Shown here piece by piece: positions 23,338-30,248 of a DNA stretch of 64,000 bases. Numbering within the stretch: position 1 is the first letter of the stretch; every line of letters begins with the position of its first letter. Under the pieces are notes generated by a model that searched no databases, was not told the DNA's origin, and worked only from the letters and a program-made list of their open reading frames with translations. The position numbers and the translations under genes were made by a program. The stretch covers positions 134,205 through 198,204 of the forward strand of contig NZ_LT629731.1 of NCBI RefSeq assembly GCF_900104575.1, written 5' to 3'. The stretch is from Bacillus tuaregi. GTDB lineage: Bacteria > Bacillota > Bacilli > Bacillales > Cytobacillaceae.

Positions 23338-24120
23338 ATGATGCCTTCCCTTTTTATTGCCCATGGAGCACCGCTGCTAGCGATTGAGGAGAATGAGTAT
23401 ACACAGTTTTTGCGTGAGCTGGGAAAAGCATGGCCAAAGCCAAAGGCTGTTGTCCTCTTTTCTGCCCACTGGGAGAGCGTAGTGCAAAAGGTAAGTGATG
23501 TAGAAGAGTTTGATACGATTTATGATTTTGGCGGCTTCCCTGAGGCGTTATACAGGATTCAATATCCGGCAAAGGGAGATCAAAAGATTACCGAGGAAAT
23601 AAAAGCACTATTTGCTCAGCAGCGTATTCCCTTTGAGGTAGACACAATGCGGGGCTTAGACCATGGTGCATGGGTCGTGCTAAGAATGCTTTATCCCCAT
23701 GCTGATATACCAGTTATTTCTATGTCTGTGAACCAGCGGCTAAAGCCTGAGCAGCATTATGAAATTGGCAGGGCCCTGTCAGCTTTACGAGAACAGGATA
23801 TATTGATGATTGGCAGCGGGGGGACGGTTCATAACCTTCGAGCGGTAAATTGGGAAATGGACGGCAAGGGGACTGAAGCCTGGGCAGCAGAATTTGATGA
23901 GTGGATTGAACAGAAGCTGACCAGCTGGGAAACTGCTGAGCTGTTTAACTATGAAACGTTAGCTCCGCATGCTAGCTTTGCTGTTCCACCGTATGGAAAG
24001 GAGCATTTTGTTCCATTGCTTTATGCGATGGGAGCGGCGGATGCTTCGAAGAGGGCCAAGCTTCTACACCGTAGCTTCCGGTATGGAAACCTCAGCCACA
24101 GCGTGTGGCAGTTTGGCTGA
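23338..24120 (+). CDS. Extradiol ring-opening dioxygenase, 4,5-DOPA dioxygenase type
   Basis: A 260-aa class III (LigB-like) dioxygenase. Expected metal and catalytic histidines are seen in FIAHGAPLLA (near residue 8), LFSAHWES (near 43), GLDHGAWVVL (near 105) and GSGGTVHNLR (near 165); the last part GKEHFVPLLYAMGAA is also conserved. The family cleaves aromatic ortho-diols such as DOPA; the natural substrate in Bacillaceae is not established. AAAGGAGG precedes the first of two ATG codons. It sits alone between two insertion sequences, so it may have travelled with them (inference). Confidence 0.85.
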   Translation: MMPSLFIAHGAPLLAIEENEYTQFLRELGKAWPKPKAVVLFSAHWESVVQKVSDVEEFDTIYDFGGFPEALYRIQYPAKGDQKITEEIKALFAQQRIPFEVDTMRGLDHGAWVVLRMLYPHADIPVISMSVNQRLKPEQHYEIGRALSALREQDILMIGSGGTVHNLRAVNWEMDGKGTEAWAAEFDEWIEQKLTSWETAELFNYETLAPHASFAVPPYGKEHFVPLLYAMGAADASKRAKLLHRSFRYGNLSHSVWQFG

Positions 24121-24145
24121 TAAGTTAGATAAACAGAAGATAAAC

Positions 24146-24192
24146 GGTGTCAGGCACCACAAATGGAAAGTCGAGAATAATTGGTGGTGCCT
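24146..24192. repeat. GGTGYC..GRCACC palindromic repeat, split by the IS110 element
   Basis: GGTGTCAGGCACC at 24146-24158 and GGTGGTGCC at 24183-24191 resemble the paired palindromes at 47011-47073 (shared CACCACARATGG). The right half breaks off after GGTGCCT and resumes as GGCACCG at 26110, across the inserted element. Confidence 0.75.
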
Positions 24193-24218
24193 AGTATAGT
24201 AAATAGTTATAAGTAAAT

Positions 24219-24229
24219 AAAAAAAGGCC
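24219..24229 (+). repeat. Left subterminal inverted repeat of the IS110-family element
   Basis: AAAAAAAGGCC, 26 nt inside the left end. The reverse complement is at 26061-26071. Confidence 0.7.
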
Positions 24230-24303
24230 ACCGTTTTCATTGTAAAATGGAAGTACCTATCACAGAACTTCCAACTACAATTCCCTACCACAAGGAGATG
24301 AAA

Positions 24304-25713
24304 ATGATGGCTTATAACTTATTCAATCATATTCAGGGCAAAAACGGAAGTCGATGGGCACAATTTATTAGGGAAACAGGTACAGAGAATTTATTACTGG
24401 TGGCAGTAGATGCAGCGAAATATACACATAAGGCCATGATCTCTACATTTTATGGCGACATAATAGTAAAACCATTTGAGTTTGATGCTTCCTTAACTGG
24501 TTTTGAGGTACTAAAAAAACAAATCCAAACAGCGATTGTTCACAACGATATGAAGGTAGTTGTAGGGGTTGAAACGACAGGGCATTATTATGAGGCTCTA
24601 GTAAGAAAGTGTTATTCCGAAGCTTTTCATGTCCGTATCTTGAATGCAGCGACCACAGCTAGGGAACGAGAAGCTCTTCTAAACTGGTCAAAGACAGATA
24701 ACTTAGATTTGATGGCTATACTTCAGTCGATTATTCATGGGCGGGGGACATCTAATGAGCTCCCTAGTGGAGATGTTCACAGACTACAAAAATTGACTCG
24801 TGCCCGTCGTGAGTTAGTCCAAGAACAAACGGCTACAAAAAATCTTATTCGTGTGTATGTGGACCATATATTTCGTGAGTTTCAAGGGAAAAGTGTATGG
24901 ATAAATGGAAAGCGTAAACATGTACAAATTTTTTCGGATTTCTGGGGAAAGTCTTCACTCTATTTTATGCGTCATTGTCTCCATCCAAGTGACATCCTTA
25001 CCCTTGGAAAAAAGGGATTACGAGCCCTTTCAAAACAAGTAAATCTTAAGTTGCGCGAACAAACCATTGATTGTCTGCTTGATTACGCAAAACATTCCAT
25101 TTCTCAAGCGAAAGAACAATTAGAAGTCGAACAATTTTTACTTATTCAAAGTCTAGATCGACTAGATATGTTGGATACGCAGATTAAATTATTAGAAAGA
25201 AAAATTGAAGATTTATTTGTTCAAACGGACGGAGCCGTCATCCTTAGTGTTCCCGGAATTGGAGTTGTCACTGGAGCAGAACTATATGCCGAGATGGGGG
25301 ATATTTCTGATTTCGACCATGCAGGGCAGCTAATTAAAATGGCAGGAACGAATCCTATCGTTAAGCAATCGGGAGGGAAAAAGCCCTCTTATCATGCGAT
25401 ATCTAAGCAAGGAAGGCGAACCTTTCGAAATATAACATATCAAGTGGGAAAATCCCTGTCTATGAACAACCCTGAAATGAAACAGAAGTATGCGGCATTA
25501 AGAGATCGTGGAAAACTTCCAGGTCAGGCGTATATCGCTCTAGGAAACCGAATGATTCGTCTAGCTTTTTCAATGATCAAACACCAAACATTATATCGTA
25601 CAGACCAACCTGACTACGTTTTATACAAACAATTACGAAAGAAACTGTACAAGGCCAATGTTAAACAATTCTATGAAAGGTTTGTCATCTCAACAAGTTC
25701 CCAGATTGCCTAG
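24304..25713 (+). CDS. IS110-family transposase (DEDD recombinase)
   Basis: A 469-aa recombinase. The RuvC-like N-terminal domain has the acidic residues in VAVDAAKYTHKAM, GVETTGHYY and WSKTDNLDLMAI (DEDD); a long coiled-coil region follows (about 150-300); the C-terminal transposase_20 domain has LSVPGIGVVTGAELYAEMG and AGTNPIVKQSGGKK with the catalytic serine. The frame is open from 24247, but AAGGAG stands 6 nt before the ATG at 24304. IS110 enzymes act with an RNA guide made from the element's own non-coding end; here the 3' side carries a suitable structured region. No frameshift is visible, so the element may be active. Confidence 0.92.
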   Translation: MMAYNLFNHIQGKNGSRWAQFIRETGTENLLLVAVDAAKYTHKAMISTFYGDIIVKPFEFDASLTGFEVLKKQIQTAIVHNDMKVVVGVETTGHYYEALVRKCYSEAFHVRILNAATTAREREALLNWSKTDNLDLMAILQSIIHGRGTSNELPSGDVHRLQKLTRARRELVQEQTATKNLIRVYVDHIFREFQGKSVWINGKRKHVQIFSDFWGKSSLYFMRHCLHPSDILTLGKKGLRALSKQVNLKLREQTIDCLLDYAKHSISQAKEQLEVEQFLLIQSLDRLDMLDTQIKLLERKIEDLFVQTDGAVILSVPGIGVVTGAELYAEMGDISDFDHAGQLIKMAGTNPIVKQSGGKKPSYHAISKQGRRTFRNITYQVGKSLSMNNPEMKQKYAALRDRGKLPGQAYIALGNRMIRLAFSMIKHQTLYRTDQPDYVLYKQLRKKLYKANVKQFYERFVISTSSQIA

Positions 25714-25811
25714 ACTATGTGTTTATTTCAAAAATTCTACCCTTTTGTGCCTATTACAATATTAATTTATGTAAGTAAAGTAGACTCTTAATTAGATTTG
25801 ATTTTATTTAA

Positions 25812-25997
25812 ATGGAGCTCCTCTAGGACGTTAGATCACATTGTACCTCGTGCCTGAGGCATAGACCTCGTGTGCCAGCCTTATGGATCTTGTCCTGCAA
25901 GTACGAATAATACGTGAAAACTAAGTTTATATTCACTAGGCTGTATCCTCTGCAAGATGAAAACGCAAGATCCTTTCACGTTCTAGAGGAGCTCTAT
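25812..25997 (+). ncRNA. Candidate bridge/seek RNA of the IS110-family element
   Basis: Downstream of the transposase gene. The ends pair over 19 nt (25812-25830 with 25979-25997, two G-T). Inside is a hairpin with outer stem AGGAC..AGATC (25825-25837) / GATCT..GTCCT (25886-25896), an inner stem GAGG/CCTC (25856-25859 / 25866-25869), and, flanking the inner stem, GTGCCTG (25850-25856) and GTGCCAG (25872-25878). These equal the top and bottom strand of the insertion site around its CT core. A second hairpin with inner stem GTGAA/TTCAC has ATACG (25910-25914) and ACTAG (25935-25939) beside it, matching the right end (top) and left end (bottom) of the element. Transcription was not shown; the fold was found by eye. 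Confidence 0.65.
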
Positions 25998-26060
25998 ATA
26001 AAAACTCTGTGATAGTTGAACTAGTTCCAAAAATTGGAAACCCTAGTTTTACTTTAGGTC

Positions 26061-26071
26061 GGCCTTTTTTT
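26061..26071 (-). repeat. Right subterminal inverted repeat of the IS110-family element
   Basis: GGCCTTTTTTT, reverse complement of 24219-24229, 38 nt inside the right end. Confidence 0.7.
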
Positions 26072-26121
26072 GATAAATTTCACGCTTGACTAATTTACCA
26101 TTATACGCTGGCACCGTTGAT

Positions 26122-27216
26122 TTACGCATGCGCTTTTATATATTTTTCTAAATTCCGTATTGCTTCACTAACGATAGCTGCGGTCATTTCACCTGGTAGG
26201 ACATGAATAGATTCTTCGGGTACGACGGTTTTCTCAGCCACTGCAATGATTTTTTCCTCAGTAACCTCTTGGACACCTAAGTCTTCTAAGGATACAGGCA
26301 ATGCCAGCTCTCGGTAGAATCGCAGAATACTTGCGAGCTCATCCCATTTGTCTTCCAAAATCAGTTGAATGAGAATTCCATAGGCGATCTTTTCACCATG
26401 CAGGGCATGATGGGTTTCCTCCAACACCGTCAGCCCGTTATGGACAGCGTGGGCACCGGCAACACGACCATAACGATCTCCAAAGCCGCCTACCATTCCG
26501 CCAAGCATGATAATTGCCTCGGCGACCTTGATAAAATCCTCGTTAAGAATGCCAGTCCTAGCTGCACTGACAGCGCTCTTAGAATGCTTTAACAATAGGT
26601 CCTTACATTGCTTTGCAGTAAAATAGCATATTTCTAATGGAACTGATTTATCTTCAATTGCAGCCAATTGGACATCTGCTTCATACCATTTCGCAAGAGT
26701 ATCAGCAATTCCCGCAATAAGCATATCAACAGGTCCCTGGAGAAGAATCCGCGGCTCTACAAGCACGAGGGAGGCACTGACAGGATAGATGTCAAATCGC
26801 AGGAATCTACCTGAATCATCATAAATAACGCTTACCGGTGTCCATGGTGAGCAGTTGGAGGTCAGGGTCGGGATTAACACGACCGGCTTATGTGTTAGGT
26901 GTCCAGCTGATTTCGTAAGGTCGAGAACCTTACCGCCGCCAACACCAATTATGGCATCGAAGCCGCCCTCAACCGTCAGCCTTGAAACTGTCGCAATTTC
27001 CGTAAGTGAGTTCTCGCCATTGTAAATATATTCGGTGCTCTCAACTGTATCCAGTGCAGGCCAGAACGGGCTTGCTGCCTTCCATGACTTTTGCCCATGA
27101 ACAATGAGGATCTTCTGAAGTCCGCGCTCCAGTAATTTAGCCTCTAATTGATCCAAAATCCCTTTTTGGAGTACATATTCACCAGGTGCTCCATGTACAT
27201 AGATCGTTTCCATCAT
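26122..27216 (-). CDS. Iron-containing alcohol dehydrogenase family protein (GldA/HcxA-like)
   Basis: A 364-aa NAD(P)-dependent dehydrogenase of the glycerol-dehydrogenase-like branch: dinucleotide site GVGGGKVLDLTKSAG, PTLTSNCSPWTPVSV, and metal ligands in GIADTLAKWYEA (Asp), VAGAHAVHNGL and ETHHALHGE (His). The ATG at 27216 follows AAGGAGA; the frame remains open further upstream into metQ without a ribosome site. It lies directly behind metNIQ on the same strand and could be co-transcribed under the SAM riboswitch. Escherichia coli HcxA (2-oxo acid reduction) is a similar protein, so a role with a methionine-derived 2-oxo acid is possible but unproven. Confidence 0.75.
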   Translation of the reverse strand: MMETIYVHGAPGEYVLQKGILDQLEAKLLERGLQKILIVHGQKSWKAASPFWPALDTVESTEYIYNGENSLTEIATVSRLTVEGGFDAIIGVGGGKVLDLTKSAGHLTHKPVVLIPTLTSNCSPWTPVSVIYDDSGRFLRFDIYPVSASLVLVEPRILLQGPVDMLIAGIADTLAKWYEADVQLAAIEDKSVPLEICYFTAKQCKDLLLKHSKSAVSAARTGILNEDFIKVAEAIIMLGGMVGGFGDRYGRVAGAHAVHNGLTVLEETHHALHGEKIAYGILIQLILEDKWDELASILRFYRELALPVSLEDLGVQEVTEEKIIAVAEKTVVPEESIHVLPGEMTAAIVSEAIRNLEKYIKAHA

Positions 27217-27235: not shown

Positions 27236-27248
27236 GGTGCCAGGCACC
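27236..27248. repeat. GGTGCC-A-GGCACC palindrome
   Basis: GGTGCCAGGCACC between metQ and the dehydrogenase gene is the reverse complement of the reconstructed IS110 insertion site 1 kb away, so it is a potential further target. Confidence 0.7.
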
Positions 27249-29937: not shown

Positions 29938-29960
29938 CGAAACTCGGTCTATCATTTCGA

Positions 29961-30062
29961 CTTATCTTTCAGAATGAAAGTCATTCTGCAGGATTTGGCA
30001 CCTTCCCATGTGGGGGTTGCCGGACGTCATAGGGCCTTGTCCCTCGGTCACTCTGGATAAGT
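29961..30062 (-). promoter_or_regulatory. SAM (S-box) riboswitch aptamer
   Basis: On the minus strand CTTATC-CAGAGTGACCGAGGG opens the aptamer, followed by the S-box core blocks CCCTATGACGTCCGGCAACC and GGAAGGTGCCAAATCC, and closing GATAAG, which pairs with the opening CTTATC to form P1. S-adenosylmethionine binding stabilises the aptamer and lets the terminator at 29905-29937 form, shutting off metNIQ when SAM is plentiful. Confidence 0.95.
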
Positions 30063-30248
30063 TAGGTATTTAGTTATGATTAGTATAGTACTAATATTAT
30101 AATCATCTGTCAATATATTAAATTCACTTTTTTAAGAAAATAATAAAAGTGGATGTTTAACTTCATTCAGCAATTGCTTTTTGTACCGAAAGCTTGCGAC
30201 AGGTACAGAAGTCCTCCACTTCTATCAACCTGCATAACTTTAACAGAG

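Follow-up and report, generated by a model that had tools for sequence, protein, structure and literature searches.

Background

The described systems closest to the locus considered here are IS621, of the IS110 group (PMC11208160, PMC11208158), and the seekRNA elements of the IS1111 group, such as ISEc11, IS4321 and IS5075 (PMC11187229). IS621 combines a recombinase with an S/G motif and a CT core with an RNA comprising a target loop followed by a donor loop, each with the left guide on its 5' side and the right guide on its 3' side; the donor guides correspond to the element ends, and the stems hold a bulged A. The target and donor loops of one IS621 synapse are described as probably contributed by two RNA molecules, with ends ~80 A apart (PMC11208158). 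The IS1111 elements carry the RNA gene 3' of a transposase of 330-350 amino acids with a GL-P----S/TG motif, a junction promoter is reported for ISEc11 and a REP target for ISPa11, and the guide order of ISEc11 is the reverse of that of the IS110 member ISEc21, in which the left/bottom-strand guide precedes the right/top-strand guide (PMC11187229). Subterminal inverted repeats of 7-17 bp serve as a further criterion of the IS1111 group. The position of the RNA is stated to track the IS110/IS1111 split closely (PMC11208160), with IS110 members that have the region downstream among the reported exceptions (PMC11187229).

Here we analyze an insertion sequence in the window, by which we mean the whole 64,000-nucleotide stretch of the Bacillus tuaregi genome under study. 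Its likeness to IS621 extends to the recombinase family, the S/G motif, the CT core, the order of the loops and of the guides within them, the donor guides and the bulged A. It differs from IS621 in that its RNA is located on the 3' side of the gene, a long basal stem stands where IS621 has a 5' stem-loop, the 3' strand of its target loop can also pair with a segment past the donor loop, and the recombinase has 468 rather than 326 amino acids. With the IS1111 elements it shares the 3' RNA, a junction promoter motif, a REP-like target and, possibly, the subterminal inverted repeats (gapped here); it departs from them in its reversed guide order, a recombinase longer by ~130 amino acids, another C-terminal motif and its placement in a separate clade. 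Reading the sequence of this element and its relatives, we propose, with a probability of roughly 0.9, that it is an IS110-family element of the IS110 type, and not an IS1111 member, whose 3' bridge RNA guides both target and donor recognition.

The element, its recombinase and its target site

The element, as delimited by its flanks, domains and copies in the genome, extends from core to core over positions 24191..26109 of the window (this and all other features are on the plus strand unless stated otherwise). The left target half GGTGC (24186-24190) runs into the element's first CT (24191-24192), together 24186..24192, and on the other side the core CT (26108-26109) is followed by the right half GGCACC (26110-26115), together 26108..26115. 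Thus the flanks GGTGC-CT and CT-GGCACC given in the preliminary description are present, and removal of the element yields GGTGCCTGGCACC; the right end, placed there at 26116, requires a small correction to the core, 26107/26109. The insertion is site-specific and without target duplication, as the joined flanks recreate GGTGCCTGGCACC.

The recombinase gene (24307..25713) codes for a DEDD-type protein of 468 amino acids, and domain searches recover both Pfam IS110 domains (PF01548, E 4.4e-21; PF02371, E 1.9e-20) and the NCBIfam model transpos_IS110 (NF033542, 188.7 bits against a cutoff of 140), which upholds the original assignment to the IS110 family. Residues D35, E89, D131, D134, S355 and G356, which we take from family knowledge to be catalytic, are invariant across 18 aligned proteins. 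The solved structures that match the recombinase at E below 0.001 are those of IS621 and ISCro4. No Rfam family was detected inside the element at gathering thresholds, no relative was found among plasmids at E<=1e-40, and eight pattern matches in viral contigs included no relative. Elsewhere in the window there is a SAM riboswitch (29959-30063, minus strand) upstream, in the sense of that strand, of ORFs resembling those of a MetI/MetQ methionine transporter.

Besides the copy in the window, the genome contains a second copy (L005) and a short contig in which the left part of the first recurs. L005 lies on a gapped scaffold with N beside its left flank, and its right flank is again GGCACC. 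As its recombinase gene is interrupted by ~0.7 kb with N inside and beside, this copy is probably dead or misassembled. The short contig (C6, 3235 bp) corresponds to ~21.3-24.6 kb of the window, from an adjoining 522-aa transposase-like ORF to ~410 bases into the element, and is either an assembly duplicate or a real duplication.

The host site of the element is a REP-like doublet, comparable to doublets elsewhere in the genome, whose first palindrome is GGTGTCAGGCACC (24146..24158, without strand). The pattern GGTGYCNGGCACC matches the genome 45 times on the plus strand and 44 times on the minus strand, the reversed control pattern matching nowhere; by our count these sites comprise 24 intact GGTGCCWGGCACC palindromes, each matched on both strands, and 41 others, one of which sits on the duplicate contig C6. 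The proposal that the element inserted into a palindromic repeat of Bacillaceae is thereby supported. These palindromes form a high-copy set of about 65 sites, often as doublets ~48 bp apart, some with ATGGACAAA..TTTGTC in between; within the window they occur at 24146, 27236, 47013 and 47059, that at 27236 being an intact GGTGCCWGGCACC. Since the two strands of such a palindrome differ only at the central T/A, we predict that insertion would be oriented by nothing but the CT core. The publications retrieved as containing GGTGCCTGGCACC concern heart biology only, and those on Bacillus, IS110 and palindromes include nothing on such an insertion, in both cases as judged by title.

A predicted bridge RNA 3' of the recombinase gene

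Downstream of the recombinase gene we recognized a structured RNA gene of ~180 nt, the predicted bridge RNA (25814..25994), closed by a 12-pair basal stem (25815-25826 with 25983-25994). Folding of the 3' region beats 100 of 100 shuffles (z -3.46). Alignments were made of 26 sequences (A1) and of 29 including the 45%-identity clade (A2). The basal, inner target and donor stems, together with the helix B:C described below, are paired in 94.2% of 1026 cells, a figure that drops to 35-50% when the alignment is shifted by 1-3 columns; in the basal stem 86.2% of cells are paired and eight of the 12 pairs show two-sided changes. The covariation that the preliminary description had asked for was found: 15 pairs carry two-sided changes against 8.4 in shuffles (0/500).

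The target loop has the arrangement originally described, with GTGCCTG (25850-25856) and GTGCCAG (25872-25878) on either side of an inner GAGG/CCTC hairpin and within an outer AGGAC..AGATC / GATCT..GTCCT stem. The inner hairpin (25856..25869; GAGG at 25856-25859, CCTC at 25866-25869) is invariant in 26/26 sequences. By comparison with the flanks, the left target guide GTGCCT (25850..25855) would pair with the left half and core of the bottom strand, and the right target guide GTGCCAG (25872..25878) with the core and right half of the top strand. In the second loop, the left donor guide ATACG (25910..25914) equals the right end of the element, ATACG-CT, and the right donor guide ACTAG (25935..25939) is the reverse complement of the left end CTAGT, matching CT-AGT. 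The guides follow the order left/bottom strand, then right/top strand, in both loops.

The donor matches had been regarded as possibly due to chance, a caution that is eased by the relatives. The five nucleotides of the left donor guide equal the right end in 25/25 elements (ATACG, AAACG or GTACG); between the right donor guide and the left end, agreement is exact in 16/27 and extends to 27/27 with one G-T wobble allowed (CTAGT, CTATT, CTGGT). Full matches between guides and ends of different clades number 4/294 and 61/338. As ends and guides are both inherited, this agreement amounts to about two independent co-changes and not 27; nevertheless, chance seems an unlikely origin for the donor matches, because between clades the donor guides follow both element ends.

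Probable natural retargeting across relatives

Relatives were collected in successive searches, the counts including the genome of origin: 23 loci in a first search, then 9/193 genomes of the family, 13/397 of the order and 5/398 of the class, and a further search (13/397 genomes) that added one new element. A phylum-wide search with the most distant relative recovered 1/398 genomes, the genome of origin. Family searches for remoter members (3/7 and 2/18 genomes) gave further copies, of which L149, L152, L153 and L158 were read, and no new element type; in a Peribacillus asahii relative (28.7%) that we inspected, no comparable RNA could be made out. The flank table draws on 57 of the 73 loci; 13 of the 16 omitted are duplicates across collections with identical flanks, L039 and L043 end before the RNA, and L100 is a decayed copy without guides. 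The tallies are of flanks, which are not always separate insertions, and in the JVDT and Evansella drafts 5 right and 6 left flanks are shared contig ends of only 4-6 nt.

Comparison of the other copies, as the preliminary description had suggested, reveals that differing guides go with correspondingly differing sites on each side. The five nucleotides of the right guide beyond the core equal the right flank in 52/55 flanks (28 elements), the misfits being L034 and L027 (4/5 each) and L038 (2/5); the summed agreement is 135/140, against a permuted mean of 94.4 and maximum of 113 (0/20000 permutations). The left guide equals the left flank at 4/4 positions in 44/54 flanks (27 elements), with 3/4 in L036, L023, L071, L062, L070, L049, L065 and L027, 1/4 in L038 and 0/4 in L026; here the agreement is 96.3/108, the permuted mean 79.4 and maximum 92 (0/20000). 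Seven right-guide types (GTCAC, GACCC, GTCCC, GGCAC, GACAC, GTGCA and GTGTC) track their flanks, with a mismatch in one of the two flanks of the GTGCA type, and an eighth, AAACA (L038), does not.

Six copies (L149, L152, L153, L158, L115 and L128) were read after these statistics and stand outside them. Their right guides fit at 5/5 positions in 6/6, including the very different flank AAACG. The left guide fits at 4/4 only in L149, L152 and L128; L153 has one mismatch, L115 fits only with a one-base shift, and L158, whose left guide is TTTC as opposed to GAAC in its sister copies of that genome, does not fit, its site reading GGTAC-CT-GTCCC and its right guide being unchanged. Possibly the left guide of L158 was altered after insertion, and this copy would then represent an intermediate step of natural retargeting; TTTC-guided elements of the L115/L128 type are present in its genome as well. 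L115 and L128, which are 77% identical to L038, occupy the non-palindromic target TTTC-CT-AAACG just before a hairpin-like sequence, and within the 42%-identity sister lineage formed by the three they appear to have been retargeted to it from palindromes. Given the left-side misfits, in 10/54 flanks and in the later copies, left-side specificity is either looser or lagging behind guide change.

Further peculiarities concern individual copies. L064, L054 and L073 have the left guide GTGCATG in place of GTGCCTG, and hence a guide core CA, with all three insertions at CT. In L026, of the Sporosarcina type, the left end borders directly on TTGACATAGTACG, which in the 45%-identity clade forms the right end, as if L026 had inserted at or recombined with the end of another element; its left guide is mismatched there. 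Inspection by eye for covariation of the handshake guides with the target gave no consistent pattern (three rows were misread).

Affinities within the IS110 family and alternative readings

The recombinases of the lineage have 452-471 amino acids and share the motif GTNP----SG in 11/11, that of the window being GTNPIVKQSG. In our tree the 11 lineage members group together with support of 100/100, and five IS1111-type references make up a clade of their own (100/99) that excludes the window recombinase; long branches leave the deep backbone of this tree open, and two of the references, IS5708 and ISShdy1, were assigned to the IS1111 type because they are 38-40% identical to ISEc11. The guide order of ISEc11, also read directly from its sequence, is the reverse of that of the window element. 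On account of tree, length and guide order we therefore remove the IS1111-group label that had been attached to the element. Subterminal repeats were compared in ten elements with no shuffled control; they are gapped in the main clade and the Sporosarcina type, reach 7 ungapped bp in L075 and are weak in the 45% and 42% clades. Among the papers listed in our literature searches we found no description of the lineage.

Two readings compete with ours. One would make the element a true IS1111-group member with a seekRNA, in keeping with the position of its RNA 3' of the recombinase, an IS1111-side trait, and with gapped subterminal inverted repeats such as GTATA..GTAAA-TAG in the window element. 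We consider this improbable: the guide order is opposite to that of ISEc11, the protein has 468 amino acids against 330-350, and the IS1111-type references form their own clade; the motif is GTNP and not GL-P, even though IS621 also has GL-P, so that the motif alone does not decide. The other holds that guide matches merely mirror inherited similar flanks or the uniform repeats of Bacillaceae, the RNA being structural and the recombinase picking its sites itself. Most targets indeed fall into a single, loosely defined family of GC-rich palindromes (in 34/52 joined targets, 4 or 5 of the 5 positions fit a palindrome), left guides fully match the flanks of elements with another left guide in 40/877 comparisons, and L158 ignores its left guide. 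Nevertheless, right flanks follow right guides, the mean match being 4.91/5 to the own guide and 3.14 where guide and flank come from elements whose guides differ, with 0/1264 full matches among the latter, and the flanks GTCCC, GACCC, GTGC, GTGTC and AAACG are each paired with a matching guide; this reading hence appears scarcely credible to us. The lineage would then be IS110-type with a 3' RNA, an exception to the position rule for which the guide order can now be stated.

Two predicted, mutually exclusive helices

Three segments of the RNA can form two helices that exclude each other, both kept in four divergent clades. Segment A (AGATCACAT, 25833..25841), identified in the alignment as the 5' strand of the target-loop stem and bearing a bulged A, pairs with segment B (ATGGATCTTG, 25883..25892) to close the target loop, a helix extended further out by GGAC/GTCC. 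Segment B is shared, as it alternatively pairs beyond the donor loop with segment C (CAAGATCC, 25966..25973), and this B:C pairing is the one favored by RNAalifold; A would be its partner in the target state and C in the donor state. For stem strands picked by eye, exact complementarity to a second partner does not exceed 4 nt in ISEc11, nor does it downstream of the 9-nt strand in IS621. As the exclusive helices recur in four clades and the IS621 synapse probably uses two RNAs, we tentatively propose, as a possibility that may well prove mistaken, that the RNA is bistable: B would either close the target loop with A or extend the donor stem with C, each molecule serving one function, and the free RNA would mostly be outside the A:B form, which the recombinase or target DNA would select.

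The contrary view, which we regard as evenly balanced, is that no switch exists: the true fold would be B:C, with A:B arising incidentally from short conserved sequence, or vice versa. Of the two helices A:B is the less well supported: it has one pair with two-sided changes, a count not above shuffles (296/500), its covariation score is matched by 6/500 shuffles, and two pairs of its outer part are lost in five Sporosarcina-type sequences. In B:C every cell that contains a letter is paired, yet just 1/8 pairs shows two-sided changes. Across 26 sequences ViennaRNA gives B:C an average advantage of 3.85 kcal/mol, and A:B comes out lower in three of them, L030, L066 and L028; P(A:B) is <=0.02 in 22/26 and P(B:C) is <0.3 in seven, including the window, whose predicted minimum-energy fold pairs A with C and B with other segments. 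Against a by-product, the inner part of A:B is paired in 26/26, with variants that are G-U or C-G and never A-C, and A:B carries the bulged A described for IS621 stems. Moreover, A, B and C all vary across the four clades, and in a comparison of 11/31 sequences, 2-3 elements per clade, the own-clade energies of both A:B and B:C are the best of their row and column in all four. Single-element duplex p values span 0.00-0.09 for A:B and 0.00-0.02 for B:C among the eight listed, the A:B median being 0.063; the sequences around A and C also pair strongly, averaging -14.46, but include part of the basal stem and thus form no clean negative control. Among the matches listed in a literature search on alternative folds of bridge RNAs, no title was on this topic.

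Leader-tail pairing and the junction promoter motif

A further complementarity links CTATCACAGA in the recombinase leader (24257..24266) with TCTGTGATAG just 3' of the RNA (26006..26015), a sense-strand pairing of 10-12 bp. In other clades the letters are changed and the pairing is kept (CAATCACAGAAC/GTTCTGTGATTG, CTGACAGAAAAC/GTTTTCTGTCAG, TTAACCAAGTT/AACTTGGTTAA). Perfect runs of at least 10 occur in 19/29 elements against 0.8% of 5800 shuffles, to be read as four clades rather than 19 trials because the elements are related. Among 30 elements, L070 and L052 have no good helix; in the other 28, two of which (L060, L076) are copies of one element, positions 1-10 contain twelve G-U pairs and three mismatches, none of the latter being A-C or C-A. 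The presence of G-U without A-C or C-A points to pairing of the sense RNA rather than a DNA repeat. Positions 11-12 show nine mismatches of the A-C or C-A kind and three of other kinds, and many elements thus have a helix of 10 bp. As to its function, we can only guess at a processing signal or at translational control by an antisense mechanism; the helix could also form in RNA reading through the joined ends.

In the joined circle, TTGACT (26086..26091) would stand 17 nt from TAGTAT across the core. The corresponding motif TTGAC[T/C]-N17-TA[G/T]T[A/G]T is present in 8/8 of the main-clade and Sporosarcina-type junctions listed, and the two listed for the 45% clade have TTGACA-N18-[A/G]ATAAT instead. 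A consensus promoter scan of 24100-26250 returned 6 hits against 6.2 in shuffles.

By analogy with the described systems, the following course of events may be envisaged. Both strands of the target (GTGC-CT-GGCAC in the REP-like repeat occupied here) would pair with the first internal loop of the RNA, and the second loop would pair with the ends of the element once these are joined (ATACG-CT-AGT). The recombinase would bind this RNA and exchange strands at the CT core, presumably through the serine linkage suggested by published work, and a circular intermediate would form a promoter over the joined ends, from which both recombinase and RNA could be transcribed. Relatives would retarget through changed target guides.

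Conclusions

The element targets an intergenic repeat that its host carries in high copy number, and its relatives in Bacillaceae and Caryophanaceae constitute a naturally retargeted bridge-RNA series in which guides, flanks and ends are legible. If the leader-tail pairing is genuine, it could tie the supply of RNA to recombinase expression. The exclusive helices, if real, would provide a simple test of how one two-loop RNA is shared between target and donor complexes, and a bistable RNA would have built into it the division of labor that the IS621 structure only suggests. With an RNA placed 3' as in IS1111 and guides ordered as in IS110, RNA position and guide order are separable traits, which is of relevance to the divergence of the two groups.
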